In this document: positions 3,178 through 20,185 of the stretch, one piece after another
Position numbering within the stretch: position 1 is the first letter of the stretch
Layout of the letters: the number at the start of each line of letters is the position of its first letter
Virus record (IMG/VR): IMGVR_UViG_3300027963_000411
Coordinates: 1-20,185 of that record
Origin: a virus
Strand: one strand, 5' to 3'
DNA: 20,185 nucleotides
Made by a program: the position numbers and the translations under genes
The notes under the pieces: model-generated
What the model was told of the DNA's origin: nothing
Database searches by the model: none
What the model saw: only the letters and a program-made list of their open reading frames with translations

Positions 3178-6015
3178 ATGGCTATAACCTCATATAGATT
3201 CGTTTCTCCCGGTGTTCAAGTTCAAGAGATTGATGAATCCCAACTTCCAAACACTTCTAACCTTGTAGGACCAACTATTATTGGTCGCTTCATAAGAGGA
3301 CCAGCCAATCGTCCTGTTTATATTACCTCTAAATCACAATTGGTTGAAACCTTTGGTAATTCAGTTCCGGGCAAATCTGGTGACGACGTTTGGCGTGATG
3401 GAAATACAATTGGAACAATGTATGCTGGTTATGCTGCACAAGCATGGTTAACGAACACTCCTGCTGTTAATATTATTCGCTTACTCGGTACACAAAGCCC
3501 AAATGCAACTAACGATGGTAAAGCAGGTTGGGAAACACCAACATTTGCCACTAATGATTCTGGTGGTGGTGCATATGGTTTATTCGTTATGCAATCTGGC
3601 TCTGCTAGTTCTACAGTTTCTGGCACGCTTGCTGCTGTTTGGTATATGAAGACTGGTTCTGTTGCTCTTTCTGGCACATTAGCAGGTTCTGATGCCTCCC
3701 CAACTTATGTATCTGGCACTAACGTCCTCTTAAAATCAAATGGTGGATACTCAGAGTTTTATGCTGTAGTTACAACTCCAAGCGGAACATATGCATCAAA
3801 CTTTAACTTTAATGTAGATTCCGATAAGTACATTAGAAAAGTATTTAATACTAATCCAATCTTAACAAACTCAGACATTACTGCTACAAGCAACGTTGAA
3901 TATTATTGGCTTGGAGAAAGTTTCGAAAGAAGCCTCGATGAAGTAGTTGGACTTGGTTCATTATCAACATATGCATTTATTGCCCCATTAGTAAGCGGTA
4001 CTGTAAGTTACAACAAGTTCCGTTCTCCAACTAGACCAGCAAAAACAGGCTGGATTATTGGTCAAGATTTAACAACAAACTCTGGTTCATATAATCCAGC
4101 ATTGCAACAAAAATTGTTTAGATTTGTTGGGTTAGATAATGGAGAGTGGCTACAACAAAACATCAAAGTATCCATTACTGATATTAAACCACCAGCAACC
4201 GATTTTGATGATTACGGTTCATTCTCTGTACAATTAAGAAGAGTTACAGATTCTGATAACAATGTTAGTGTTGTCGAACAATACACAAATGTTAACTTAA
4301 ATCCAGTTTCACCAAATTATATTGCAAGAAAGATTGGCGATAAATACGTTGCATGGGATGATACCGAAAAGAGATTAAAAGAATATGGTACATACACAAA
4401 TGTATCAAAGCACATTCGCGTCGAAATGGATGCAGATGTTGATGCTGGTGCAATAGACCCAACTTACTTACCATTCGGATTCTTCGGTCCACCAAGACCA
4501 AAAAGATTCACAATTTCAATCGCTAATTCTGCTTCTGTTAATGCTCCTTCTAATACTGTGGTATCTGGTGGCTATGCAAGAGCATACAATCCAAGCGTAT
4601 TCTTATCCGCTTCAGTCGGCACATTAACAGCAAACATGGTATTCCCTGCAATTCCATTAAGACAATCTGCTTCTGACGGAGGCGTCACTCCAGTAACAAA
4701 TACTTACTTTGGTATTACAACTGGCGAAAAGACAGCATACACAACTTATGATTATAGTTATGCTGATATGGTTAGAGCATTCCCATCTACATTTGGCGAT
4801 GATGCATATGATTATGGAAATGAAGCATACAGAGAAAATTCATTTGTATTCTCTTTAGATGATGTTTCTGGTTCTACTTCTACTGGTACTGGATATGTTT
4901 ATGTATCTGGTTCTAGAGCATTAGCCACTTCAATTACCGCAGTAAATGGTGGATATCGTTCAATTATAACAGGCTCTAATGCTTACAATCGTTTCACAAT
5001 GCCATTCTATAACGGCTTTGACGGATTCGACATTACAGAAGCAGACCCACTTAGAAACAAGATTCTTTCTGACGGTTCACCAACTGAACGTACAAGTTAC
5101 GAATACTTTACTCTTAGCAGAGCAATAGATACAATCTCAGACCCAGAAACATTAGTAACTGATGTTGCATGTGTTCCCGGTCTTACTTATGCTCCTTTGA
5201 CAACCAAGTTGGTTCAAACCTGTGAAGCAAGAGCAGATGTACTTGCCGTTATAGACCTTCCAAACGTCTATATTCCAGAACAAGAACAATATCTTTCAAA
5301 TAGAACTTCAAGATATGCTGGAACTGCAAGACAAGCAGCACTTGACCTTAAATCAAGAGGTTTAAATTCAAGTTATGGTACTTGTTATTATCCTTGGGTA
5401 CAAATCCGCGACACCATCAATGATCAACTTGTATTCGTTCCACCATCTGTTGTAGCACTTGGCGCTATGTCATACGGACAAAGAACGCAAGAACTTTGGT
5501 TCGCTCCAGCAGGCTTCACCCGTGGTGGTCTTACTGAGGGACGTGGCGGCATTCCAGTTATCGGCGTAACACAAAGACTTTCTTCAACTGATAGAGACAC
5601 ACTTTATGAAGCCAACATCAATCCTATCGCTCAATTCCCAGCAGAAGGTATTGTTATCTTTGGTCAAAAGACATTACAAGTAACTCCATCTGCACTTGAT
5701 AGAATTAATGTTCGTAGATTAATGATTTACTTAAAGAGAGAAATTTCAAGAATTGCTGCAACAATTCTCTTTGACCAAAATATTGATGTAACTTGGAGTA
5801 GATTCTTGGGTCAAGCAAATCCATTCCTTGCTTCTGTTAAGTCTCGCCTAGGTCTTTCTGACTATCGCGTAATCCTTGACAAAACCACTACAACACCAGA
5901 TTTGGTTGATAGAAATATCATGTATGCCAAAATCTTCTTGAAGCCAGCAAGAGCAATAGAATTTATCGCAATTGACTTTACAATTACAGATTCTGGCGCA
6001 TCATTTATTGATTAA
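3178..6015 (+). CDS. gp18: Contractile tail sheath protein, gp18-like, enlarged
   Basis: The protein polymerises around the tail tube and contracts to drive the tube into the host. The N-terminus YRFVSPGVQVQEIDESQLP (residues 6-24) is the usual sheath opening. The last 245 or so residues form the conserved C-terminal sheath domain, with RYAGTARQAALDLKSRG, CYYPWVQIRD, PAGFTRGGL and INPIAQFPAEGIVIFGQKTL, and end in IEFIAIDFTITDSGASFID. At 945 residues it is much longer than T4 gp18 (659). The extra length lies in the middle (about 110-620), a Gly/Ser/Thr-rich region with recurring SGT motifs, probably surface-exposed beta domains. AGGAG stands 11 bp before the ATG. The tube genes follow, the usual order. 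Confidence 0.93.
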   Translation: MAITSYRFVSPGVQVQEIDESQLPNTSNLVGPTIIGRFIRGPANRPVYITSKSQLVETFGNSVPGKSGDDVWRDGNTIGTMYAGYAAQAWLTNTPAVNIIRLLGTQSPNATNDGKAGWETPTFATNDSGGGAYGLFVMQSGSASSTVSGTLAAVWYMKTGSVALSGTLAGSDASPTYVSGTNVLLKSNGGYSEFYAVVTTPSGTYASNFNFNVDSDKYIRKVFNTNPILTNSDITATSNVEYYWLGESFERSLDEVVGLGSLSTYAFIAPLVSGTVSYNKFRSPTRPAKTGWIIGQDLTTNSGSYNPALQQKLFRFVGLDNGEWLQQNIKVSITDIKPPATDFDDYGSFSVQLRRVTDSDNNVSVVEQYTNVNLNPVSPNYIARKIGDKYVAWDDTEKRLKEYGTYTNVSKHIRVEMDADVDAGAIDPTYLPFGFFGPPRPKRFTISIANSASVNAPSNTVVSGGYARAYNPSVFLSASVGTLTANMVFPAIPLRQSASDGGVTPVTNTYFGITTGEKTAYTTYDYSYADMVRAFPSTFGDDAYDYGNEAYRENSFVFSLDDVSGSTSTGTGYVYVSGSRALATSITAVNGGYRSIITGSNAYNRFTMPFYNGFDGFDITEADPLRNKILSDGSPTERTSYEYFTLSRAIDTISDPETLVTDVACVPGLTYAPLTTKLVQTCEARADVLAVIDLPNVYIPEQEQYLSNRTSRYAGTARQAALDLKSRGLNSSYGTCYYPWVQIRDTINDQLVFVPPSVVALGAMSYGQRTQELWFAPAGFTRGGLTEGRGGIPVIGVTQRLSSTDRDTLYEANINPIAQFPAEGIVIFGQKTLQVTPSALDRINVRRLMIYLKREISRIAATILFDQNIDVTWSRFLGQANPFLASVKSRLGLSDYRVILDKTTTTPDLVDRNIMYAKIFLKPARAIEFIAIDFTITDSGASFID

Positions 6016-6047: not shown

Positions 6048-6677
6048 ATGGCATTTTGGAATGAAGCAAGCGTTGAGCCAAAAAGAAAGTTTAAATTCTT
6101 GTTAAGATTTGGTGCTGCATCTGATGCATTACCTTCGTTTATAGTCAAGAAAGTCAATAAACCAGAAATAACAATTTCTGAGGCTACACATAAGTTCTTA
6201 GGCCACACATATTACTTTCCAGCAACAACAACATGGAATGAAATAACGGCTGCTGTTATTGACCCTAATGGCTTGGGTGGTGTTGGCGATGCTGATACAT
6301 CAACACCACAAGCAACTGCTACAGACGTTGCAGAAGGCTTATATAGAGTTCTCCTTGCTGCGGGGTATCAATCTCCAGTAGCACAAGGCTATGCCTCTGC
6401 TGGCGGTGCTGGTGCAACATTGAGAACATTTGCTAAATCAACAGCAACAGCGCAATTTGATAGAATCGAAATTATTCAACTTGATGCATCTGGTTCTCCA
6501 ATTGAAGTTTGGACTCTTAATAATGCTTGGATTAAAAAAATGGCATTTGGTGAACTTGATTATGGTTCCGATGATATTAATGAAGTTCAGTTAACATTCC
6601 GATATGATTGGGCAGATATTAAAGTTTATGCTGCTGGTTCTGAAACTGAATCATTCAATTCTGAATTAGAATCATAA
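6048..6677 (+). CDS. gp19: Tail tube protein, gp19-like (copy 1)
   Basis: This 209-residue protein should form the inner tail tube through which DNA passes. The N-terminus MAFWNEASVEPKRKFKFLLR and the following FIVKKVNKPEI match the opening of T4-type tube proteins. The end, FGELDYGSDDINEVQLTF (167-184) and then RYDW, is the family's terminal beta-strand motif. T4 gp19 has 163 residues; the extra length here is an Ala/Gly/Thr-rich stretch around 75-130. AAAAGGAAAC before the ATG is a strong ribosome binding site. The gap also holds CTATATAAT (6020-6028), which could be a separate promoter. The gene follows the sheath gene and precedes a second copy of the same fold. Confidence 0.88.
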   Translation: MAFWNEASVEPKRKFKFLLRFGAASDALPSFIVKKVNKPEITISEATHKFLGHTYYFPATTTWNEITAAVIDPNGLGGVGDADTSTPQATATDVAEGLYRVLLAAGYQSPVAQGYASAGGAGATLRTFAKSTATAQFDRIEIIQLDASGSPIEVWTLNNAWIKKMAFGELDYGSDDINEVQLTFRYDWADIKVYAAGSETESFNSELES

Positions 6678-6687
6678 TAGGTGATTG

Positions 6688-7377
6688 ATGTTTTGGAATA
6701 CTGGTGGCAAAAATCAGCAAGCATTACCATATAATAAATTTAATTTTATTGTTAATTTTAGTGGATTAAATGAAAAATTAATTGAACTAGAAACTGATGA
6801 TAAAGTATTGAGTTTTTTTGCCAAAAAAGTATCTGCTCCAAATATGAAAGTGGAATTTGAAAGAGCATATGCTAACGAGTATGTTCACTATTTTCAAAAC
6901 GGAGCAATTCATTGGGAACCAATTACAATAACATTTGCTGATTTTGGTATTACAAGCGGTGAAAATAGTACAGGTAATGATGTAAATAATAATCAAGAAG
7001 TTTCTGATTTAGAAAGTCAATTAGACATTTCTTCAAAACTTTCAATAAGAGAAATATTTAATTATTATCTTCAAATAAATTTAATTGATAAATTTTCTGA
7101 CCGTTCCGAGATTGCTACATCAGAATTATCAAAAAATGTAACTGGTGTTATTGATTTGCCAATCTTTTGTAATTTCATTCAAGTTAAAAACAATATTCGT
7201 TTTGCAAATAAAGATTTTTCTACTAAAAACAACAAATCTGTTTTAAATAGAGAAATTGTATATGAATTCTATAATCCAAGAATTACAAGCGTAGATTTTG
7301 GCTCCTTTGAATATGGTTCGGATGATATTAATGAAATCTCCGTTACATTTGTCCCACAATGGGTTGTTATTAAATAA
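6688..7377 (+). CDS. Second tail-tube-fold protein, gp19 paralogue
   Basis: The ATG at 6688 is preferred over the TTG one codon earlier because AGGTGA (6679-6684) is well placed for it. The 229-residue product is clearly related to the preceding tube protein: MFWNTGG at the start, FFAKKVSAPNMKVEF near the N-terminus, and FGSFEYGSDDINEISVTF (204-221) at the end, aligning with FGELDYGSDDINEVQLTF of copy 1. A less similar middle part (about 90-190) is Asn-rich and charged. T4 has tube-fold proteins gp48 and gp54 that start the tube on the baseplate, and other myoviruses have a special first tube ring. A tube initiator or minor tube component is therefore the most likely role; a second major tube subunit is possible. 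Confidence 0.75.
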   Translation: MFWNTGGKNQQALPYNKFNFIVNFSGLNEKLIELETDDKVLSFFAKKVSAPNMKVEFERAYANEYVHYFQNGAIHWEPITITFADFGITSGENSTGNDVNNNQEVSDLESQLDISSKLSIREIFNYYLQINLIDKFSDRSEIATSELSKNVTGVIDLPIFCNFIQVKNNIRFANKDFSTKNNKSVLNREIVYEFYNPRITSVDFGSFEYGSDDINEISVTFVPQWVVIK

Positions 7378-12098: not shown

Positions 12099-12863
12099 AT
12101 GGCTGATATTGAACAATACCCAGAAGCAGGAGCGACAGATTCTAAAGGCAACAAGTTAGTTGTTAATACAGAAAGTCTTTTAAAGATTTATAGTGTTACA
12201 TATAACGTGCCATTTTATTTTCTTCCTTACGATTTTAAAATGACAGAAAGCCTAAATATAAATTGGAATCAGCAAAGTGTTTACGGAAGAATGGACCCTA
12301 TTGCAACATTTAAAAATATGGGAAGAACAATCCAACTCTCTTTCAAAGCAAGACAAAAAATACAAGATGGTACTGCCGATTTATCATTCACGGGTGACGA
12401 ACTTTTGCACTCTATTGACCATTTAAAAAAATGTTTATATCCAACATATAATGAAAATCAAATTATGGTTTCTCCTCCATTGTTTAGATTTCAATATAAA
12501 AATCTTATTAATGCAGGAGAAGAACAGTTTGCTATTGGTCCAACAAATGGTGTTCTTGGTTTTATAACAGTCTTTAATGCTAATTTTATGACTGAGCCTA
12601 ATAAAATATATTTTCCCTCTGATAAGAAAAGTTTTGCCTATCCAAAAGTATTTGATATTAATTTAACATTTACTGTTTTGAATGAAAATCTTGTTGAAAC
12701 ACAACAATTTGGAATGTTAAAGAAAAAATACTTTTATAATTATGAGCATATTCATACACACGGAAATGCAACGCAAGCAAATGGCACAGATTCTAGTGCC
12801 GCAAGTGGCACTCCCATTCAAGAGGAGCAAGAAGCCACACAACAAAAGGTATTACAATTCTAA
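12099..12863 (+). CDS. Baseplate tube-cap-like protein (gp48-type, tentative)
   Basis: The 254-residue protein contains SVYGRMDPIATFKNMGRT (60-77) followed by beta-strand-like IQLSFKARQ. Later come PPLFRFQYKNLI and YPKVFDINLTFTVLNE. I associate this pattern with baseplate tube-cap proteins of T4-like environmental phages, the equivalent of gp48, which joins the tail tube to the hub. T4 gp48 is longer (364 residues), and its final strands (IQSIRF, FTLEITM) are only loosely comparable. The last 35 or so residues are a Thr/Ala/Gln-rich tail. No Shine-Dalgarno sequence is visible before the ATG, which lies 10 bp after the tape measure stop, so translation may be coupled. Its stop overlaps the next start (TAATG). 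It could instead be another tube-fold baseplate component. Confidence 0.55.
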   Translation: MADIEQYPEAGATDSKGNKLVVNTESLLKIYSVTYNVPFYFLPYDFKMTESLNINWNQQSVYGRMDPIATFKNMGRTIQLSFKARQKIQDGTADLSFTGDELLHSIDHLKKCLYPTYNENQIMVSPPLFRFQYKNLINAGEEQFAIGPTNGVLGFITVFNANFMTEPNKIYFPSDKKSFAYPKVFDINLTFTVLNENLVETQQFGMLKKKYFYNYEHIHTHGNATQANGTDSSAASGTPIQEEQEATQQKVLQF

Positions 12864-13204
12864 TGGCTACAAGATACGATGGTTTAAGTCAAAAAACTAC
12901 TTCTAAACAAAATTCTGAAACTATGAGTGAAGTTTTAGACAATAGAGGCTTAAATCAAATAACACATTATAATACAAGTAAACTACAATACCCTACTGTT
13001 CAACAAATAAGAACTTTAACTATTGATGCACACACTTGGAGTCACCAAGATAGATATTGGAAATTGGCTGCTAAATATTATGGAGATTCAAAGTATTGGT
13101 GGGTTATAGCATGGTTTAATAAAAAACCAATTGAATCAATGCTTAATATTGGCGACCAAGTTTCGATTCCAATGCCATTAGATAGAATACTAAGGATGTT
13201 ATAA
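12863..13204 (+). CDS. LysM-like baseplate protein, gp53-type
   Basis: The 113-residue product has a polar N-terminal 40 residues and a LysM-like second half. HTWSHQDRYWKLAAKYYGD (57-75) is followed by YWWVIAWFNKK (78-88) and GDQVSIPMP (97-105). The order helix, tryptophan-rich helix, then short strand with a proline is the LysM pattern. T4 baseplate wedge protein gp53 (196 residues) carries a LysM-like domain with the same yGxxxxyWvl core, and small LysM baseplate proteins occur in P2-like and other contractile tails. A role in binding the baseplate parts together is inferred. It could equally be the hub-binding LysM protein of simpler contractile systems. The start overlaps the upstream stop (TAATG), and its own stop overlaps the next start in the same way. 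Confidence 0.62.
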   Translation: MATRYDGLSQKTTSKQNSETMSEVLDNRGLNQITHYNTSKLQYPTVQQIRTLTIDAHTWSHQDRYWKLAAKYYGDSKYWWVIAWFNKKPIESMLNIGDQVSIPMPLDRILRML

Positions 13205-16185
13205 TGAGCACTAACGACGCTTCATCAAATACTTCTGTTGCTCCAAAATTTGACCCACAAACATATTTGTTGTCTTATTTTGATTCAGATATCGCACCAT
13301 TAGTTCAAGATTTACAATATGAATATGTTATTCCATTAATAACATCAGAAGATTATAGTTATCCTGCAACTATTTCACTTTTAACAGATAAAACAAATAA
13401 AAATAAATTTACTCAACTTAAAACATATCAGTATAACGGATTGTCTCCAAGGGTTAGGCTTTTCAGAGTCGAATATGATACGAGCAATACTGTTACATCA
13501 CAAAAAGAATACATATTTAATAAAGATTATAAATACACACCACTTTCTGATTTAACAAGCGGTATTGCAAGAAACAATTCTGGTCTTAAAAGTTTTTCTT
13601 GGAAATTAGCAGGTTCGAATCCTATAACAGCAGAAAAACAAATTATTGTTGATGTTGAGTTCTTCTTTGATTCAATAAACTCATTTTCTGGTGGTAGTTA
13701 CGACAAAATGATTGAGGCTTGGAAAAGAGCAGGAGACACATACGATAATAGTTTATTTTCCCATTGGGATAAAGATGATGGTCAAGGCGGCGGCACAACA
13801 ACAAATTATTGGTCTTTAATTTTCCACCCACAACAAAAAAATAATAAAAATGGATATTCAACATATAATTTTAGAATAAAAGCAATAGTTGGATGGGAAA
13901 AATTAGACCCTACGATTAGAGAACATTTAAAGTTAACAGACGTATCAGATGATATAGATAAATTAAATTATTGTTTTTTTCTTAATTTAATTAAGCATGA
14001 GTTTTCATTAAATGAAGATGGAAGTATTACTTTAAAAGCATCATATGTTGCTTCTTTTGAAAACTCAACATTTAATTATCAATTTGATGTTTTAGGAAAT
14101 TTAAAACAACAAATTGAAGATTTAAAAAATAATAATAAGAAAATTTATCTCGATGCAGGAACATCGGGAAATAGTATTCTTAGTCCTGTTTCAAAGAAAT
14201 TTGAAGGTACTGGTGCTATAGCAGTAGCAGATGATTTAAATACTGCTTTAGGAGATATGGGAGTTAGTGAACAAAATCCTTTATCTCTTGAAACATTGGG
14301 AACTAAAATAGCAGATTCTAGTTACAATGATGTTGTAAAAATTTCTAAATTATTAAATGAATTATTAAACAATGACGAAGACATTCAGAAAGAATGTTTA
14401 AAGCAGTTAAATATTTCTGAGGGTAACCCATTATATGTAGCATTAACAAATAAACAAATTTCTAAAACAGCACAAGAAAATTATCAAAAAATATTAGATG
14501 TTAAAAAAGATGAATTTCAAAAAAAAACAAATTTATTAAAACAAAGATTTTATTCTAGATTTATTAGCACTTTATTAGATTTTAACGAAAATCAAGACAA
14601 ATTTTTTAAGGTTTCTTTAACTGGCGAACAAATAAAAAAATGGGAAACATGGATATCTAATATATCTGATGATTATTCATCAAAACCGCCAAATTTTAAT
14701 AATATAGATGTTACTGATAATGACGTAAAAACAACAGCATTTGACAATTTAGTTAACAAAGCCGAACAAGGCGTTGTGCCTACAGAAGATAATTATAAAC
14801 AAATTAGAGAAGATTTATTTAAAAAAACAAAAGAAAGAACACCAGACGATGGTATGTCAATTGTTTTTACAACATTTGGTCACGTTCTGGATTCTGCATA
14901 TAAAACAGTAGCACAAAATAGAAATGTACCAATAGAAGAATTGAAAAAAAATAAAATAATTTTAGCAAATCTTTTAAGTGAAATTGCAATTTTGGATATT
15001 AATACAAAAACAAATAAAAATGTAAAAAATCTTGCATTTTTACCTATCGACTTGACATTATTACAAGCATTCTTAATTGATAAGATTGTTAAACCACAAA
15101 AAGATACATATCCATTATTTTCTTTTATTAGGGACGCTTTAACCACTTTAGCAATGTCAGCATTAAATGTCAAAAATGCATATAATGAAAGTGTAAGTTC
15201 TTATTCTGATGTTTCATTAGCAAGTACAATTATTACTCTTGGTGACAATGGCGAAGGAAAAGACCCTTTATTAGATTCGTATATTTTAGTTAATGGAACA
15301 ACAAATCAAGAAATTAATGAATCCTCAATATTTTCAGATGCACTTTTTACAGTTAAAAATCTTAATCCATATTATGTAAATTTTTTAACAATAGACAAAC
15401 ATAAAAATTTTTATAATTATTTCATTATTTACGATAAAAATACAACTGACTTTAAACCAACGATTCCTTTGAATTTAGAACAAGATGAATCACAAGGTAT
15501 TTATCATTATACGTATGGTCAAGATTATGGTTTAGTAAAGGCAATTAACTTTTCAAGAATTGACCAACCATATTTAAAAGAATCAAAAGCAGTTGGACAA
15601 GAAACATTTTATTTAGGTCAATTTAGAGATAGATATAACGCTGACATAACAATGGTAGGTAATAATATATATTATCCCGGTATGTTGTTGTACATTACAC
15701 CATCTGTCGAAGGAGTTTTGGGAGAACCAAATTTTTCTCAAATAAGCGGCATAGGTGGATATTATATTGTCATTGAAGTTGAATCTAAAATCTCAGAAGA
15801 AGGATATGAAACAAAACTAACAACAATTTGGCAATTTGACGGAACGGAAACATCTAACAAGTCTGATATCACTAAAAAATGTGCAGCATTATTACAAGAA
15901 ATTGGACTTTCTTCTGATAACGTATCATCTGATATAAATGCTATTTTGGATGTTGTCAACAAAGTAGCAGAGGTTTCTATTGCAAATTCAGGTGAATCTT
16001 TGTGTGGAAAACCTGTTGTAGAATCAGCAATTGAAGTTTTAAGTTCCAATGAAGTATTGGAAGCCGCTGCTACCGGAGGCACCGGAGGCGCAGTAGGCGT
16101 TGTTTCTAGTGTTCCTGTTGTCGGGACTATTGTTGCAGGAGCGGTTTTTGTAAAAAATGTATTTTTTAAAGATGAAGAGGAATAA
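13204..16185 (+). CDS. Large (993 aa) hub-like tail/baseplate structural protein
   Basis: This is the longest protein in the window. Residues 1-300 are beta-rich: NGLSPRVRLFRVEYD, the strand SGLKSFSWKLAGSNP, a strand with IIVDVEFFFDS, then ALVGW-like AIVGWEKLDP and LIKHEFSLNEDGSITLKASY. The middle (about 300-680) is Lys/Asn/Glu-rich and helical. Residues 760-900 contain QFRDRYNADITMVGNNIYYP and a GGYYIVIEVESKI element, as found in hub or spike-binding proteins. The last 30 or so residues are a Gly-rich hydrophobic segment (GGAVGVVSSVPVVGTIVAGA) closed by a charged end. It follows the gp48- and gp53-like genes, where the hub protein gp27 or an equivalent would be expected. A hub role is inferred; no specific catalytic motif was seen. 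Confidence 0.6.
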   Translation: MSTNDASSNTSVAPKFDPQTYLLSYFDSDIAPLVQDLQYEYVIPLITSEDYSYPATISLLTDKTNKNKFTQLKTYQYNGLSPRVRLFRVEYDTSNTVTSQKEYIFNKDYKYTPLSDLTSGIARNNSGLKSFSWKLAGSNPITAEKQIIVDVEFFFDSINSFSGGSYDKMIEAWKRAGDTYDNSLFSHWDKDDGQGGGTTTNYWSLIFHPQQKNNKNGYSTYNFRIKAIVGWEKLDPTIREHLKLTDVSDDIDKLNYCFFLNLIKHEFSLNEDGSITLKASYVASFENSTFNYQFDVLGNLKQQIEDLKNNNKKIYLDAGTSGNSILSPVSKKFEGTGAIAVADDLNTALGDMGVSEQNPLSLETLGTKIADSSYNDVVKISKLLNELLNNDEDIQKECLKQLNISEGNPLYVALTNKQISKTAQENYQKILDVKKDEFQKKTNLLKQRFYSRFISTLLDFNENQDKFFKVSLTGEQIKKWETWISNISDDYSSKPPNFNNIDVTDNDVKTTAFDNLVNKAEQGVVPTEDNYKQIREDLFKKTKERTPDDGMSIVFTTFGHVLDSAYKTVAQNRNVPIEELKKNKIILANLLSEIAILDINTKTNKNVKNLAFLPIDLTLLQAFLIDKIVKPQKDTYPLFSFIRDALTTLAMSALNVKNAYNESVSSYSDVSLASTIITLGDNGEGKDPLLDSYILVNGTTNQEINESSIFSDALFTVKNLNPYYVNFLTIDKHKNFYNYFIIYDKNTTDFKPTIPLNLEQDESQGIYHYTYGQDYGLVKAINFSRIDQPYLKESKAVGQETFYLGQFRDRYNADITMVGNNIYYPGMLLYITPSVEGVLGEPNFSQISGIGGYYIVIEVESKISEEGYETKLTTIWQFDGTETSNKSDITKKCAALLQEIGLSSDNVSSDINAILDVVNKVAEVSIANSGESLCGKPVVESAIEVLSSNEVLEAAATGGTGGAVGVVSSVPVVGTIVAGAVFVKNVFFKDEEE
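16072..16089 (+). repeat. Tandem 9-bp repeat (ACCGGAGGC x2) in coding sequence
   Basis: Two exact copies of ACCGGAGGC encode TGGTGG just before the C-terminal hydrophobic segment of the 993-residue protein. They stand out as GC-rich in AT-rich surroundings. Confidence 0.8.
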
Positions 16186-16188
16186 AAA

Positions 16189-17379
16189 GTGGCTAACAAT
16201 AAAACCAATACATCAATATTATACGAACAAAGAAGATACTACAAATATTCTTTTTTTAATTACATAGAAAATAAAATTGATTTTTGGGAATTACAGAAAT
16301 ATTATGGCAGAGTAGATAAAAGAGGAATTCCATTTTATTTAAATCAACAATATTTAAAATCAATTACAACACCATCAATAACAAATACACAACAAAAACA
16401 AATGGTTTTAAATATTGTTTCTGATTCATTTAAAGAAATGAATGACGAATTCAAGAAAGCAGATTTATATTTTAACATACCAAAGTCTAAATACAATCCA
16501 TTGAAAATAAAAAAATCAACTTTAGTTTTTGAAACAGAATATACAAATTATTTTAGAGAATTATTAAATTTATGGTATAAACAAAACAAAAATAATATTG
16601 ATAATAATATAAGTAATTTTAATGATTTTATGAATTTATTTATAGGTACTTTTGCATATGCAAATGCAATTATGACACAATCTGCTTATTTAACAAGTTT
16701 TCTTTCCTCTCCTCTAAATACTGGTCTTGTAATTGAAATAAGCAACGATAAACATGATGAAGACCCAACAAAAATAAATAATTTTATTAATGATGAAAAT
16801 TTTCAATTCTTTTGTAACACAACTGGTAAATATGGATTCATGGTTGATAAAAATGCGCCTTGGAGAATTGTATACAATTTGACAACGCAATATGCAAATG
16901 ATAAAATGAATCAATACGGAATAACAGATATTGATGATTTGTTCAGCAAATATTATGTTTACCCTCACTTAACAGAATATAAAAAATTAAGAGAAGAATT
17001 TATAAATTTTTATAATTCTAAAGTTAAACAAAAACCAACATTACAAAAATCAGAATATTGTCACATAACAAAAGGTGTTAAATTTACTGAAATTACAAAA
17101 AGCACAGAAACAATTCAAGATGATTTATCTTGGATTAAGTTTTATTACTTTCTAAGATGCAAGGAAGAGACAATTGGAATGACCCAATCTCAATTTGTTA
17201 TAGATTTGAATAAAATTTCTATGCTTTATAATTCTTTTGGTGAAACTTCAGCACTTGAATGGATTTTAAATAAAACCAAAAAGTTTATTGACGGCGGCTC
17301 AAATCCATCGTATACTCAGTATACAGCCGTCACCACAAATAAGTCACAAAACTTAACGCTGTATAACTTTCAATTTTAG
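16189..17379 (+). CDS. Virion-type protein of unknown function
   Basis: The GTG at 16189 is the start: GAGGAA (16177-16182) is six bases upstream and the preceding stop is three bases away. The 396-residue product is rich in Asn, Lys, Tyr and Phe and has no signal peptide or clear membrane segment. Three blocks look conserved: FWELQKYYGRVDKRG (32-46), SSPLNTGLVIEISNDKHDEDP (starting at 173), and GFMVDKNAPWRIVYNL (216-231) followed by DIDDLFSKYYVYPHL. I recall similar block patterns in uncharacterised structural proteins of T4-like marine phages, so a virion or baseplate protein is likely. No function can be stated. It is one of the most AT-rich genes here (12 of 60 bases G/C in the line from 16201) and ends the structural series before a compositional change. 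Confidence 0.6.
   Translation: MANNKTNTSILYEQRRYYKYSFFNYIENKIDFWELQKYYGRVDKRGIPFYLNQQYLKSITTPSITNTQQKQMVLNIVSDSFKEMNDEFKKADLYFNIPKSKYNPLKIKKSTLVFETEYTNYFRELLNLWYKQNKNNIDNNISNFNDFMNLFIGTFAYANAIMTQSAYLTSFLSSPLNTGLVIEISNDKHDEDPTKINNFINDENFQFFCNTTGKYGFMVDKNAPWRIVYNLTTQYANDKMNQYGITDIDDLFSKYYVYPHLTEYKKLREEFINFYNSKVKQKPTLQKSEYCHITKGVKFTEITKSTETIQDDLSWIKFYYFLRCKEETIGMTQSQFVIDLNKISMLYNSFGETSALEWILNKTKKFIDGGSNPSYTQYTAVTTNKSQNLTLYNFQF
17290..17331. repeat. Nested inverted repeats near the end of a coding region
   Basis: Outer arms GACGGC (17290-17295) and GCCGTC (17326-17331) flank an inner perfect inverted repeat, GTATACT-C-AGTATAC (17310-17324). The left spacing is 14 bp and the right 1 bp, so a hairpin would be asymmetric. 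It lies about 50 bp before the stop of the 16189 gene. Confidence 0.5.
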
Positions 17380-17388
17380 AAGGGGCAA

Positions 17389-18591
17389 ATGTTCTTCGAA
17401 GTTATCGACAACAAGTTTGATTGCTTTGGGTATTTCTATGATGGTCACATCATGTTTATGCCTCCAAATACAGAAACAACTAAATATTGCTGGACATATA
17501 ACTCTGCGTTGAAAGACTACTCAGATATTAAGTACGTTTCCTTGTATTGCGAAGGCAAGACAATAACAGAAGTATGTCCAGATTATCTTAAAAATGATTG
17601 GACTAAACTTAACGAACGTTTTAAAGCGTTCTTTAAGTCATTTCATACAGCCAAAATTAATCTTGAAGAAAATTGCTTTTATGATATGGTGCCAATGTCG
17701 TTCTTGATTGACTATTTTGAAACAAAGGTCAAGATTATTGAGCATGTAGTTAGCACATATCAGAAGCCAGCAAACTATGACCATCTTTATGAAGTGATGA
17801 AAGTTTGCGATACTATCTCAAAACAAAAACTCGTAATTGATACTTCCATTTTAAACCTTAAAATTGCAGACCCTGCAATTAAAAAGGCAAAGATGAAGTA
17901 TGATAGCCTTAAACCATATATCAAGTACGATATCTTTGGGACAAAGACGGGCAGACTTTCAACTATCCCCCGTTCTTTTCCAATTCATCAACTTGATAAG
18001 GACTTCCGTAATGTTATAAAGCCAACTAACGATTGGTTTTTGGAGTTAGATTTCAATGGAGCAGAATTGAGGACGTTCCTTGCGCTTGCAGGAAAGCCTC
18101 AACCAAATATTGATATTCATGATTGGAATGTAGAAAACATTTTTGATGGAAAGTACGATAGAGAAGAAGGCAAGAAGAAGATTTTTGAATGGTTATATGG
18201 CGAAACAAAGAACAAGAAAGCAGAAGAGATATACAACAAAGAGCAAGTTAGAAGCAAGTATTGGGATGGAACAAAAGTAACAACATATTGGGGTAGAGAG
18301 ATAGAAGCAGACAAGCACCATTCACTTTCGTATATTGTTCAATCTACGTTTGCTGATTTGGTACTTAAACAGATGGTAAAAGTCTATAAACTCTTGGAGG
18401 GATATAAGTCTTTCATTTCATTTACGATTCATGACAATATCATTGTTGATTTGGCAGACGATGAAAAGCATCTATTGCCACAAATTGTCGAAGTGTTTTC
18501 AAATACAGACCTTGGAAAGTTCCTTGTTAATTTGAAAGCAGGTTCAAATTTTGGTGAAATGAAGAAAATTCACTATAAACAAACTATTTAG
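17389..18591 (+). CDS. Compact family A DNA polymerase-like protein
   Basis: The 400-residue protein has the polymerase motifs of family A (Pol I type). GRL (188-190) corresponds to the TGRLSS element. Motif A is DFNGAELR (221-228), with D221 as first metal ligand. Motif B has the canonical spacing R258-K262-F266-Y270-G271. Motif C is TIHDN (346-350), with H348 and D349. The usual HDE is HDN here. No 3'-5' exonuclease motifs are visible in the first 180 residues, which I do not recognise, and the fingers region between motifs A and B is very short. T4-type phages normally replicate with a family B enzyme, so this may be a repair or accessory polymerase. GAAGGGG precedes the ATG. The gene is richer in G/C (21 of 60 bases in the line from 17401) than the gene before it, suggesting separate origin. 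Confidence 0.82.
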   Translation: MFFEVIDNKFDCFGYFYDGHIMFMPPNTETTKYCWTYNSALKDYSDIKYVSLYCEGKTITEVCPDYLKNDWTKLNERFKAFFKSFHTAKINLEENCFYDMVPMSFLIDYFETKVKIIEHVVSTYQKPANYDHLYEVMKVCDTISKQKLVIDTSILNLKIADPAIKKAKMKYDSLKPYIKYDIFGTKTGRLSTIPRSFPIHQLDKDFRNVIKPTNDWFLELDFNGAELRTFLALAGKPQPNIDIHDWNVENIFDGKYDREEGKKKIFEWLYGETKNKKAEEIYNKEQVRSKYWDGTKVTTYWGREIEADKHHSLSYIVQSTFADLVLKQMVKVYKLLEGYKSFISFTIHDNIIVDLADDEKHLLPQIVEVFSNTDLGKFLVNLKAGSNFGEMKKIHYKQTI

Positions 18592-18610: not shown

Positions 18611-18967
18611 ATGGACCAAATTGTTGCAAATTTGATTGGTATGGAACAACAACTTCGTATATGGCATTGGCAAACAAAAATGTATTCAAGACACCAAGCA
18701 TATGGTGCTACATACAATGCTCTTGGAGAACTTATAGATTCATTCATGGAAGCATATATGGGTAAATATGGCAGAGTGGAAGCACCATCTTCTGTACCTC
18801 TTGAAAATATGTCTAACGATGTTCAACCAAAAATTGATGAATACATTGAAATGTTAATTGGTTTAACTGAACAGTTAGATGCTAGAGTAGATTCTGACCT
18901 TTTAAATATTCGTGATGAAATGCTAAGTCTTATGAATAAACTCAAATACCTTTTGACACTTAAATAA
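18611..18967 (+). CDS. Dps/ferritin-like small protein
   Basis: The 118-residue helical protein opens with MDQIVANLIGMEQQLRIWHW, containing the HW pair typical of Dps-like helices. H28, D43 and E47 follow; the spacings H-x14-D and D-x3-E equal those of the Dps ferroxidase ligands H63, D78 and E82 of E. coli. It is shorter than Dps (about 167 residues) and lacks a Lys-rich N-terminus. Phages carry short ferritin-like proteins of this kind annotated as domains of unknown function. Iron binding or DNA protection is a possible role, inferred only from these residues. AAGGAAA (18597-18603) is well placed before the ATG. CTATTTAG at 18584-18591 overlaps the preceding stop. Its own stop overlaps the next start (TAATG), so it is probably co-translated with the phosphatase-like gene. 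Confidence 0.65.
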   Translation: MDQIVANLIGMEQQLRIWHWQTKMYSRHQAYGATYNALGELIDSFMEAYMGKYGRVEAPSSVPLENMSNDVQPKIDEYIEMLIGLTEQLDARVDSDLLNIRDEMLSLMNKLKYLLTLK

Positions 18968-19857
18968 TGGAACAAAAAGTTAAAGATTTAATTAAAGAGT
19001 GCAAAACTCTTGTTGAGCAAGGTGAGCCTTTTCAAAGAAAAGTGAAGGCTAAACATTCTCGTTTAAAGAAGAGAGTTGTTGGTCATGGTGGTCAAAAAAA
19101 TACTCCACCATTTTCAGAAAAACCATCAATGGAGCGTTCTAAGTCGGCACCACCAATAGGTGAGGGTTTAGGTGATTTCTTTGGGTTTATGACAACTAAG
19201 CCCAAACAACAACCAAAGAAAACAGAATATAAATACGAAGAAGGTAAAGACTACAATCACGTTTTTCGCAATATTTATGTAGGTGCAGCACCTATTAGTG
19301 GTGGTAAAATAATTGATAGTGCTTTGCAAACATTTGGTTTAATCATAGTTATGTCAAAACAAGTAGCAGACCTCATTGAAAAAAATGAAGTACCAGATAA
19401 TGTTATAACAAAATTTGCCATTGAAGATACAATCAATCCAACACCAGAAGAAAAAATAAAATTAAAACAGGCTGGTAAATTTGGAGAACAATTTATAAGA
19501 AAAAATTCTAATTCTAAAGTGTTATACACATGCTCGCAAGGATTAAACAGGTCCGCCGCCGCTGCTTGTATTACCATGCTGGAACTTGGTATTTCACCAG
19601 AAGAAGCAATTGATAAAGTAGAAGCCGCAAGAGGACCAAAAACTTTAACTTTAAGCGGCCCACCACAAGAACATGCGGGTTTTGTCCCAATTATTAAAGG
19701 GCAAGAATTACAAGAAACAATAAGAAAAAAAGGTTCTAAGTTTTGTTTGTATTCCAAAAAATCAAACAAAAATTTAGGTTGTTCTACATCAAGAAAAGGT
19801 GCAGAAGACAGAGAAAGAGAAGTACAATATTTTAAGCACGCAAAGAAAAAGTCTTGA
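18967..19857 (+). CDS. Dual-specificity phosphatase-like protein with basic phage C-terminal domain
   Basis: The 296-residue protein contains a cysteine phosphatase P-loop, C189-SQGLN-R195-S196 (Cx5R-S), preceded by the strand SKVLYT and followed by the helix AAAACITMLELGISPEEAID, as in dual-specificity phosphatases. D154 is a candidate general acid. The N-terminal 85 residues are basic and Pro/Ser-rich (GGQKNTPPF, RSKSAPP) and look disordered. The C-terminal 40 or so residues, KFCLYSKKSNKNLGC and then REREVQYFKHAKKK, match a short motif I recall from the ends of several phage proteins. This makes a three-part protein. It might dephosphorylate host proteins, RNA 5' ends or nucleotides; the substrate is unknown. 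The start overlaps the Dps-like stop. The stop overlaps the -35 box of the next promoter. Confidence 0.75.
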   Translation: MEQKVKDLIKECKTLVEQGEPFQRKVKAKHSRLKKRVVGHGGQKNTPPFSEKPSMERSKSAPPIGEGLGDFFGFMTTKPKQQPKKTEYKYEEGKDYNHVFRNIYVGAAPISGGKIIDSALQTFGLIIVMSKQVADLIEKNEVPDNVITKFAIEDTINPTPEEKIKLKQAGKFGEQFIRKNSNSKVLYTCSQGLNRSAAAACITMLELGISPEEAIDKVEAARGPKTLTLSGPPQEHAGFVPIIKGQELQETIRKKGSKFCLYSKKSNKNLGCSTSRKGAEDREREVQYFKHAKKKS

Positions 19858-19902: not shown

Positions 19903-20185
19903 GTGGATAAAGACCCAAAGGATACTAACGAGTCTGTAATTATTGTTGTAGTAAAAGGTGATAAATCTTTGATTGTTCAACGTTCTAAAACAGACTATTG
20001 GATGCCGTTACATTGGAGTCTTCCCGGCGGTCATATTATGATTGGTGAAACTCCATATCATGCAGCAAAACGAGAATTGGAAGAAGAAGTTGGAATCAAA
20101 GCAAGAACAATCAGTTATGTTGGTACAAGAAAAACCTACAATGACTACAAAATGTACCTATATGTTTGCGATGATTTTGACGGGG
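19903..20185 (+). CDS. Nudix hydrolase (3'-truncated)
   Basis: The frame starts at GTG 19903, the first start after an in-frame TGA at 19873, with GGAG (19894-19897) five bases upstream. It runs off the window end after 94 codons. A complete Nudix box is present: G43-x5-E49-x7-R57-E58-L59-x-E61-E62-x-G64-I65. It is preceded by the usual WSLPGGH. Such enzymes cleave nucleoside diphosphates linked to another group (for example oxidised nucleotides, ADP-ribose, NAD or RNA caps), and several phages carry them. The substrate cannot be told from this part. The visible N-terminus (ESVIIVVVKGDKSLIVQRSK) is the normal first strand pair of the fold. With its own promoter it may be expressed earlier than the tail genes. 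Confidence 0.9.
   Translation, partial: MDKDPKDTNESVIIVVVKGDKSLIVQRSKTDYWMPLHWSLPGGHIMIGETPYHAAKRELEEEVGIKARTISYVGTRKTYNDYKMYLYVCDDFDG

Follow-up and report, generated by a model that had tools for sequence, protein, structure and literature searches.

A 400-residue protein encoded by an ATG-initiated gene on the plus strand, near the end of the window (by which we mean the whole 20,185-nucleotide stretch of viral DNA analysed here), is almost certainly divPolA1, a compact family A DNA polymerase predicted from its sequence and structural model to combine palm and fingers with a reduced thumb and to lack a 3′-5′ exonuclease. We consider it fairly likely that the gene is the divPolA1 of Far-T4-like phages, additional to the replicase, and that its product would act as a Pol I-like gap filler; gap filling in itself, as suggested by the gene neighbourhood alone, has slightly better than even chances. 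The gene, its motifs and its neighbours are listed in Table 1.

Table 1. Features of the polymerase gene and of the surrounding part of the window
Feature	Position	Strand	Basis
gp53-like baseplate protein, 113 aa, end of tail module	12863..13204	+	Order shared with relatives, immuto and LR756508; named by resemblance
Tail/baseplate-side protein, 993 aa, conserved upstream	13204..16185	+	Relative loci
396-aa gene directly upstream of polymerase, conserved neighbour	16189..17379	+	Homologue at same place in 82/89 relative loci
Predicted compact family A DNA polymerase (divPolA1-type), 400 aa	17389..18591	+	Pfam DNA_pol_A; AlphaFold2 and Foldseek to Pol I; 82-member alignment
N-terminal domain, residues 1-128: beta hairpins, then two long helices	17389..17772	+	AlphaFold2 pLDDT 91.3; conserved C12, W35, C63-P64, C96
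TGRL motif ahead of palm, residues 187-190	17947..17958	+	T187, G188, R189 82/82; L190 81/82
Motif A, D221-F-N-G-A-E-L-R228	18049..18072	+	D221, N223, R228 invariant; E226 79/82
Motif B / O-helix, R258-xxx-K262-xxx-F266-xxx-Y270	18160..18198	+	R258, K262 invariant; Y270 81/82; F266 76/82
Motif C, H348-D349-N350-IIV-D354	18430..18450	+	H348, D349, D354 invariant; position 350 Ser 62/82, Asn 20/82
DUF5856 / phrog_858 protein, 118 aa	18611..18967	+	Between polymerase and replication cluster, nearest relatives only
Dual-specificity phosphatase-like protein	18967..19857	+	Weak DSPc match, under cut-off
NUDIX hydrolase, cut by record end	19903..20184	+	Pfam NUDIX, 61.7 bits

An earlier note, made from the letters of the sequence, had seen here a compact family A polymerase-like protein, and profiles, fold and motifs now agree on this. 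The Pfam profile DNA_pol_A (PF00476) matches the protein with 45.4 bits (E 7e-12; cut-off 34.3), and a PHROG search returns phrog_17, DNA polymerase (E 8e-17). A single-sequence search of the PDB gave only chance matches on top (arenavirus glycoproteins, E 0.06), with Taq at 0.5, and a profile search was therefore needed, in which a nine-sequence profile matched the Taq, Klenow and Bst Pol I structures. The AlphaFold2 model (pLDDT 86.6, pTM 0.86) carries the palm/fingers fold of Pol I, and Foldseek aligns it with Bst, Taq, Klenow and the apicoplast Pol I at E of about 1e-10, with a query TM-score of at most 0.67. Together, the profile, PDB and AlphaFold2/Foldseek results place the similarity to family A polymerases far beyond chance.

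The motif residues D221, R258, K262, F266, Y270, G271, H348, D349 and N350 are all at the positions first given for them. D221 and R258 are 37 residues apart, close to the spacing of about 35 noticed originally and shorter than that between motifs A and B in E. coli Pol I (49 residues) or T7 gp5 (43). Like bacterial Pol I (Klenow, Bst, Taq), the protein has the palm/fingers fold and motifs A, B and C; unlike Pol I, it corresponds to the family A core only, with neither a fused 5′ nuclease nor a 3′-5′ exonuclease, and Asn or Ser replaces the motif C Glu in its family. Indeed, no exonuclease profile, PF01612 included, matches the 400-residue protein, as had been supposed. By residue count, the stretch from the N-terminal domain to TGRL is shorter than its counterpart in Klenow, which may reflect a reduced thumb.

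The gene had been placed inside a T4-like tail module; it sits instead at the border between tail and replication genes, as the first gene of a conserved replication cluster. The polymerase occupies the same slot, after the 396-aa gene, in 82 of 89 relative loci; the 396-aa gene itself follows the tail module, and its product has no Pfam, PHROG or phage match. Searching IMG/VR with the protein yielded 11 relatives, and a profile search at least 502 confirmed ones, of which 80 were kept; these numbers and the shared slot speak against a recent single acquisition. The gene is indeed richer in GC than its left neighbour (34.4% versus 24.9%), but by total GC it does not look foreign, being close to the window mean of 33.2%, and a recent foreign origin on this ground was rejected. 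Its third-position GC is 0.35, and that of most neighbours 0.14-0.28.

Other genes of this region deserve mention. Positions 3178-6015 of the window encode a large tail sheath protein (945 aa), the last ~300-380 residues of which are conserved across T4-like phages, and 6048-7377, after the sheath, hold two adjacent proteins that are alike near their C-terminal ends and are probably tail tubes. Just after the polymerase gene in relatives lies a conserved protein of 270-280 aa (L128:890-1732, equal to G007:140890-141732, and homologues), which has no Pfam or PHROG match and whose glycine-rich start, IIGLGAAGCN..., is reminiscent of FtsZ/tubulin or Rossmann proteins.

The downstream order in relatives is gp32, uvsX, a Pol I-type 5′ nuclease, dnaB and then, 12-21 kb on, dnaE, which encodes a family C replicase. 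The first four genes are found in all long relatives, and locus L001 (82% identical) shows them up to the 5′ nuclease, where the locus ends. DnaE is present in each of the 11 relatives whose sequence extends at least 20 kb beyond the polymerase gene (by PF07733 in G007, G008, G009, G012, G013, G015, G017, G024, G034 and G035; the G019 contig ends inside the DnaE N-terminus), and the contigs of relatives without it end earlier than the dnaE position. This DnaE has ~1150 aa and a PHP domain (phrog_405, E 9e-225; TIGR00594 above cut-off). The window record ends 1.6 kb after the polymerase gene, and its own replicase is read from relatives, the two nearest of which (82% and 78% identical) end before the dnaE position; the nearest with dnaE are ~53% identical (L017, L018).

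In 17 of 17 tested records a stand-alone gene nearby encodes the 5′ nuclease (PF02739), which by sequence corresponds to the 5′ nuclease portion of Pol I (NF004397, E 1e-43). Relative to Pol I, the part split off is this 5′ nuclease domain. The protein is family A, not the family B gp43 expected of a T4-like phage, and no family B polymerase (PF00136) occurs in the 24 relative contigs, nor a second family A gene (PF00476) in the 24 long relatives. This lack had suggested that the compact enzyme is the sole phage polymerase, an idea dropped on finding DnaE. Relatives of T4 gp44, gp45 and gp62 were not found in G007 and G009 by single-sequence phmmer, a search too weak to show absence.

The partial gp23 places the window on the Far-T4 side, nearest to LR756508 (an uncultured 484-kb phage), Flavobacterium phage immuto and Microcystis phage Mel-JY01, and then to RM378. 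The family profile finds one compact protein each in LR756508, immuto and Mel-JY01 (E 3.5e-22, 5.3e-17 and 6.6e-13, respectively) and no homologue in RM378. All three genes, that of immuto being gp001, lie just before gp32-uvsX-5′ nuclease-dnaB; the Mel-JY01 protein WWT39333 (PP395634.1 50397-51623; L158:30397-31620), a divergent family member in the same slot, was deposited as hypothetical. The compact gene stays while the replicase changes family: immuto has a family A enzyme of 777 aa with exonuclease, Mel-JY01 a family B enzyme, LR756508 a family B enzyme that is apparently intein-bearing, with a DnaE-like piece also present, and the window lineage DnaE. The LR756508 gene, at L159:37803-40712, is apparently interrupted by a Hint/intein domain, and more polymerase pieces lie in later frames. 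Separately, immuto gp067 (L156:15216-16457), deposited as "DNA polymerase phi-like", lies between the prohead protease and capsid genes, where a scaffold is expected, and its name is probably wrong.

By hhalign, the family profile matches immuto gp001 with E 1.1e-11 over 277 columns and the full-length Pol A of immuto with E 5.8e-5 over 81 columns. A phylogeny with phage family A polymerases, as the earlier note had proposed, sets 23 compact proteins apart from six ordinary Pol A in the palm region (support 98/95), a tree in which only six ordinary enzymes are sampled and several branches are long.

The role we propose builds on the fold, the intact catalytic Asp and dNTP-binding residues, purifying selection, the fixed slot and the separate replicase in relatives, all of which were computed. 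The compact polymerase would serve the phage as Pol I serves a bacterium: it would fill short lagging-strand gaps after the separate 5′ nuclease has removed RNA primers or flaps, and may extend 3′ ends arising from UvsX-driven recombination on gp32-coated DNA. Bulk genome copying would be carried out by DnaE, or by the family A or B enzyme in cousins, and a phage could afford low processivity and a lack of proofreading in patches this short. The original idea of a repair or primer-extension enzyme fits here, the protein being a small family A polymerase that lacks an exonuclease and most probably has an accessory role, in repair or gap filling. Of that interpretation, the accessory family A enzyme other than gp43 has held, and the tail-module setting, the recent single acquisition and the split polymerase have not.

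The main alternative reverses this division of labour, with the compact polymerase as main replicase and DnaE or another regular polymerase as auxiliary. The gene context could be read in this way, since the compact gene is constant and opens the gp32-uvsX-5′ nuclease-dnaB cluster while the regular polymerase changes family, and the role of the regular enzymes has been called "less obvious" (Yutin et al., 2024, PMC11348598). We nevertheless regard it as unlikely, because an enzyme of 400 aa that lacks an exonuclease and a clear processivity domain, and whose thumb is apparently reduced, would then have to copy genomes of 150-200 kb, and wherever the sequence covered reaches far enough, it includes a full-length DnaE with PHP domain or an exonuclease-bearing Pol A or Pol B.

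Conservation across the 82-sequence family alignment argues for an active enzyme. T187, G188, R189, D221, N223, R228, R258, K262, Q318, H348, D349 and D354 are invariant (82/82), and a dN/dS of 0.05-0.07 in the polymerase part indicates strong purifying selection. The Asn at position 350, first remarked on as an oddity, is there but follows a family rule: motif C reads HD[S/N] in 82/82 sequences, and the Glu of the classical HDE never occurs. HDS and a following Asp are also found in the Pol A of the Herelleviridae Twort and LfeInf, enzymes that differ from the window family in their ~990-1070 aa and lie far from the compact clade in the tree, and the full-length Pol A of immuto has HDQ. The motif C Glu is thus not a strict requirement of family A, and its absence here, the same in every family member, represents a natural variant rather than a sign of decay. 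Distant cousins have YDA in motif C and a motif B without Arg, which makes their activity less sure. At one relative locus (L008:9989-10919) the polymerase gene is split into two overlapping frames, either an assembly error or a decayed copy.

It is accordingly improbable that the protein is a catalytically dead polymerase, acting as a primer-end binder or as a structural component of replisome or virion. The Glu-less motif C, the YDA of cousins and the adjoining tail genes would suit such a function, yet all 82 sequences keep the two catalytic Asp as well as the Arg and Lys that bind dNTP, the HDS-bearing enzymes of Twort and LfeInf are presumably active replicases, and purifying selection is strong.

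T7-type RNA polymerases arose from family A, and this origin, together with the lack of an identified dedicated primase in a search that was not thorough, would allow for a family A-derived template-directed RNA polymerase or primase-like enzyme. The top Foldseek matches, however, are all DNA polymerases, and motif A keeps E226 in 79 of 82 sequences, at the position of the Glu that excludes ribonucleotides in Pol I. Although such a role has been raised for divPolA2 (Yutin et al., 2024, PMC11348598), it is very improbable for the compact polymerase.

The N-terminal domain, modelled alone with 71 sequences, gave no fold match in the PDB with Foldseek, nothing having an E below 2.9. In the published divPolA1 the exonuclease is described as inactivated (Yutin et al., 2024, PMC11348598); a decayed exonuclease was considered for these 128 residues too but was not borne out in this lineage, the confident separate model finding no PDB match. 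The gene is also a mosaic, its nucleotide identity to L001:10001-11200 being ~63-72% in the first 500 bases and 90-96% in the last 600, and in the first part L001 and L002 (L002:10001-11200) are closer to each other than to the window. The switch in identity marks a recombination breakpoint close to where the N-terminal domain gives way to the palm.

That the protein is half of a split polymerase, bound by an exonuclease part encoded elsewhere, is hardly credible: another Far-T4 phage, RM378, does have a split family B polymerase, but it lacks a homologue of the compact protein, a search for a separate exonuclease found neither PF01612 nor PF00929 in three long relatives, 24 long relatives have no second PF00476 gene, and this single ORF holds the full set of palm and fingers motifs. 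RM378 resembles the window phage in being a Far-T4 phage without standard gp43, and differs in its split enzyme and in having no compact Pol A; a reading of its polymerase as split family A proved wrong, since the exonuclease motifs of Rm378p024 are of the family B type and Rm378p092 is a polymerase of family B.

divPolA1 was described in 14 phages, including three immuto isolates and GOV bins, with a truncated thumb, a conserved palm and a conserved replication neighbourhood, and its carriers also have a regular PolA, PolB or PolC (Yutin et al., 2024, PMC11348598). There too, the replication context of divPolA1 was found to be more regular than that of the "regular" polymerase, the role of which was judged "less obvious", and this could favour the reversed division of labour; our literature search found the name only in that paper and its preprint. 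The earlier note had named a standard clade member of already described domain order as one outcome that would refute it, and this is largely what divPolA1 is. The window gene is a further member of that described class, found in marine T4-like phages: it is homologous to immuto divPolA1, lacks an exonuclease, is followed in relatives by conserved replication genes, and is additional to a regular polymerase by way of the DnaE in 11/11 relatives, beyond the window's own 20-kb record.

Like the type, immuto gp001, it is a compact and divergent family A enzyme with the catalytic palm residues kept, a probably reduced thumb and no working exonuclease, and a second polymerase of T4-like phages (genomes of 155-190 kb) with replication genes directly downstream and a regular A, B or C polymerase elsewhere. 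It is only ~20% identical to gp001, however; its N-terminal domain is shorter and shows no exonuclease fold, its family has HD[S/N] rather than YDA in motif C, and its lineage uses DnaE. The divPolA2 of barbaviruses (Yutin et al., 2024) is likewise an accessory family A polymerase that has no exonuclease and accompanies a regular Pol B, and is set apart, by that paper's description and not by sequence comparison, through its variable neighbourhood and unrelated N-terminal domain. New here are the metagenome scale, the HD[S/N] rule for motif C and the presence of HDS in the Pol A of other phages, a separately encoded 5′ nuclease as invariable companion, the absence of PF01612 and PF00929 exonucleases from three long relatives, and two carriers outside the published 14, Mel-JY01 (WWT39333) and LR756508.

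More tentatively, these phages may possess a complete bacterial two-polymerase arrangement with Pol I in separate genes, namely DnaE, a free 5′ nuclease and a 400-aa exonuclease-free Pol A in a fixed gp32-uvsX-5′ nuclease-dnaB cluster; the Pol I-like pair would be the conserved core of the replication system and the replicase would be exchanged among families A, B and C. At 400 aa and without an exonuclease, the enzyme would rank among the smallest natural family A cores, and its family abounds in aquatic metagenomes (at least 502 IMG/VR copies). T4-like capsids and tails thus combine with replication machinery quite unlike that of T4, and the small second polymerase keeps its position even as one replicase replaces another.
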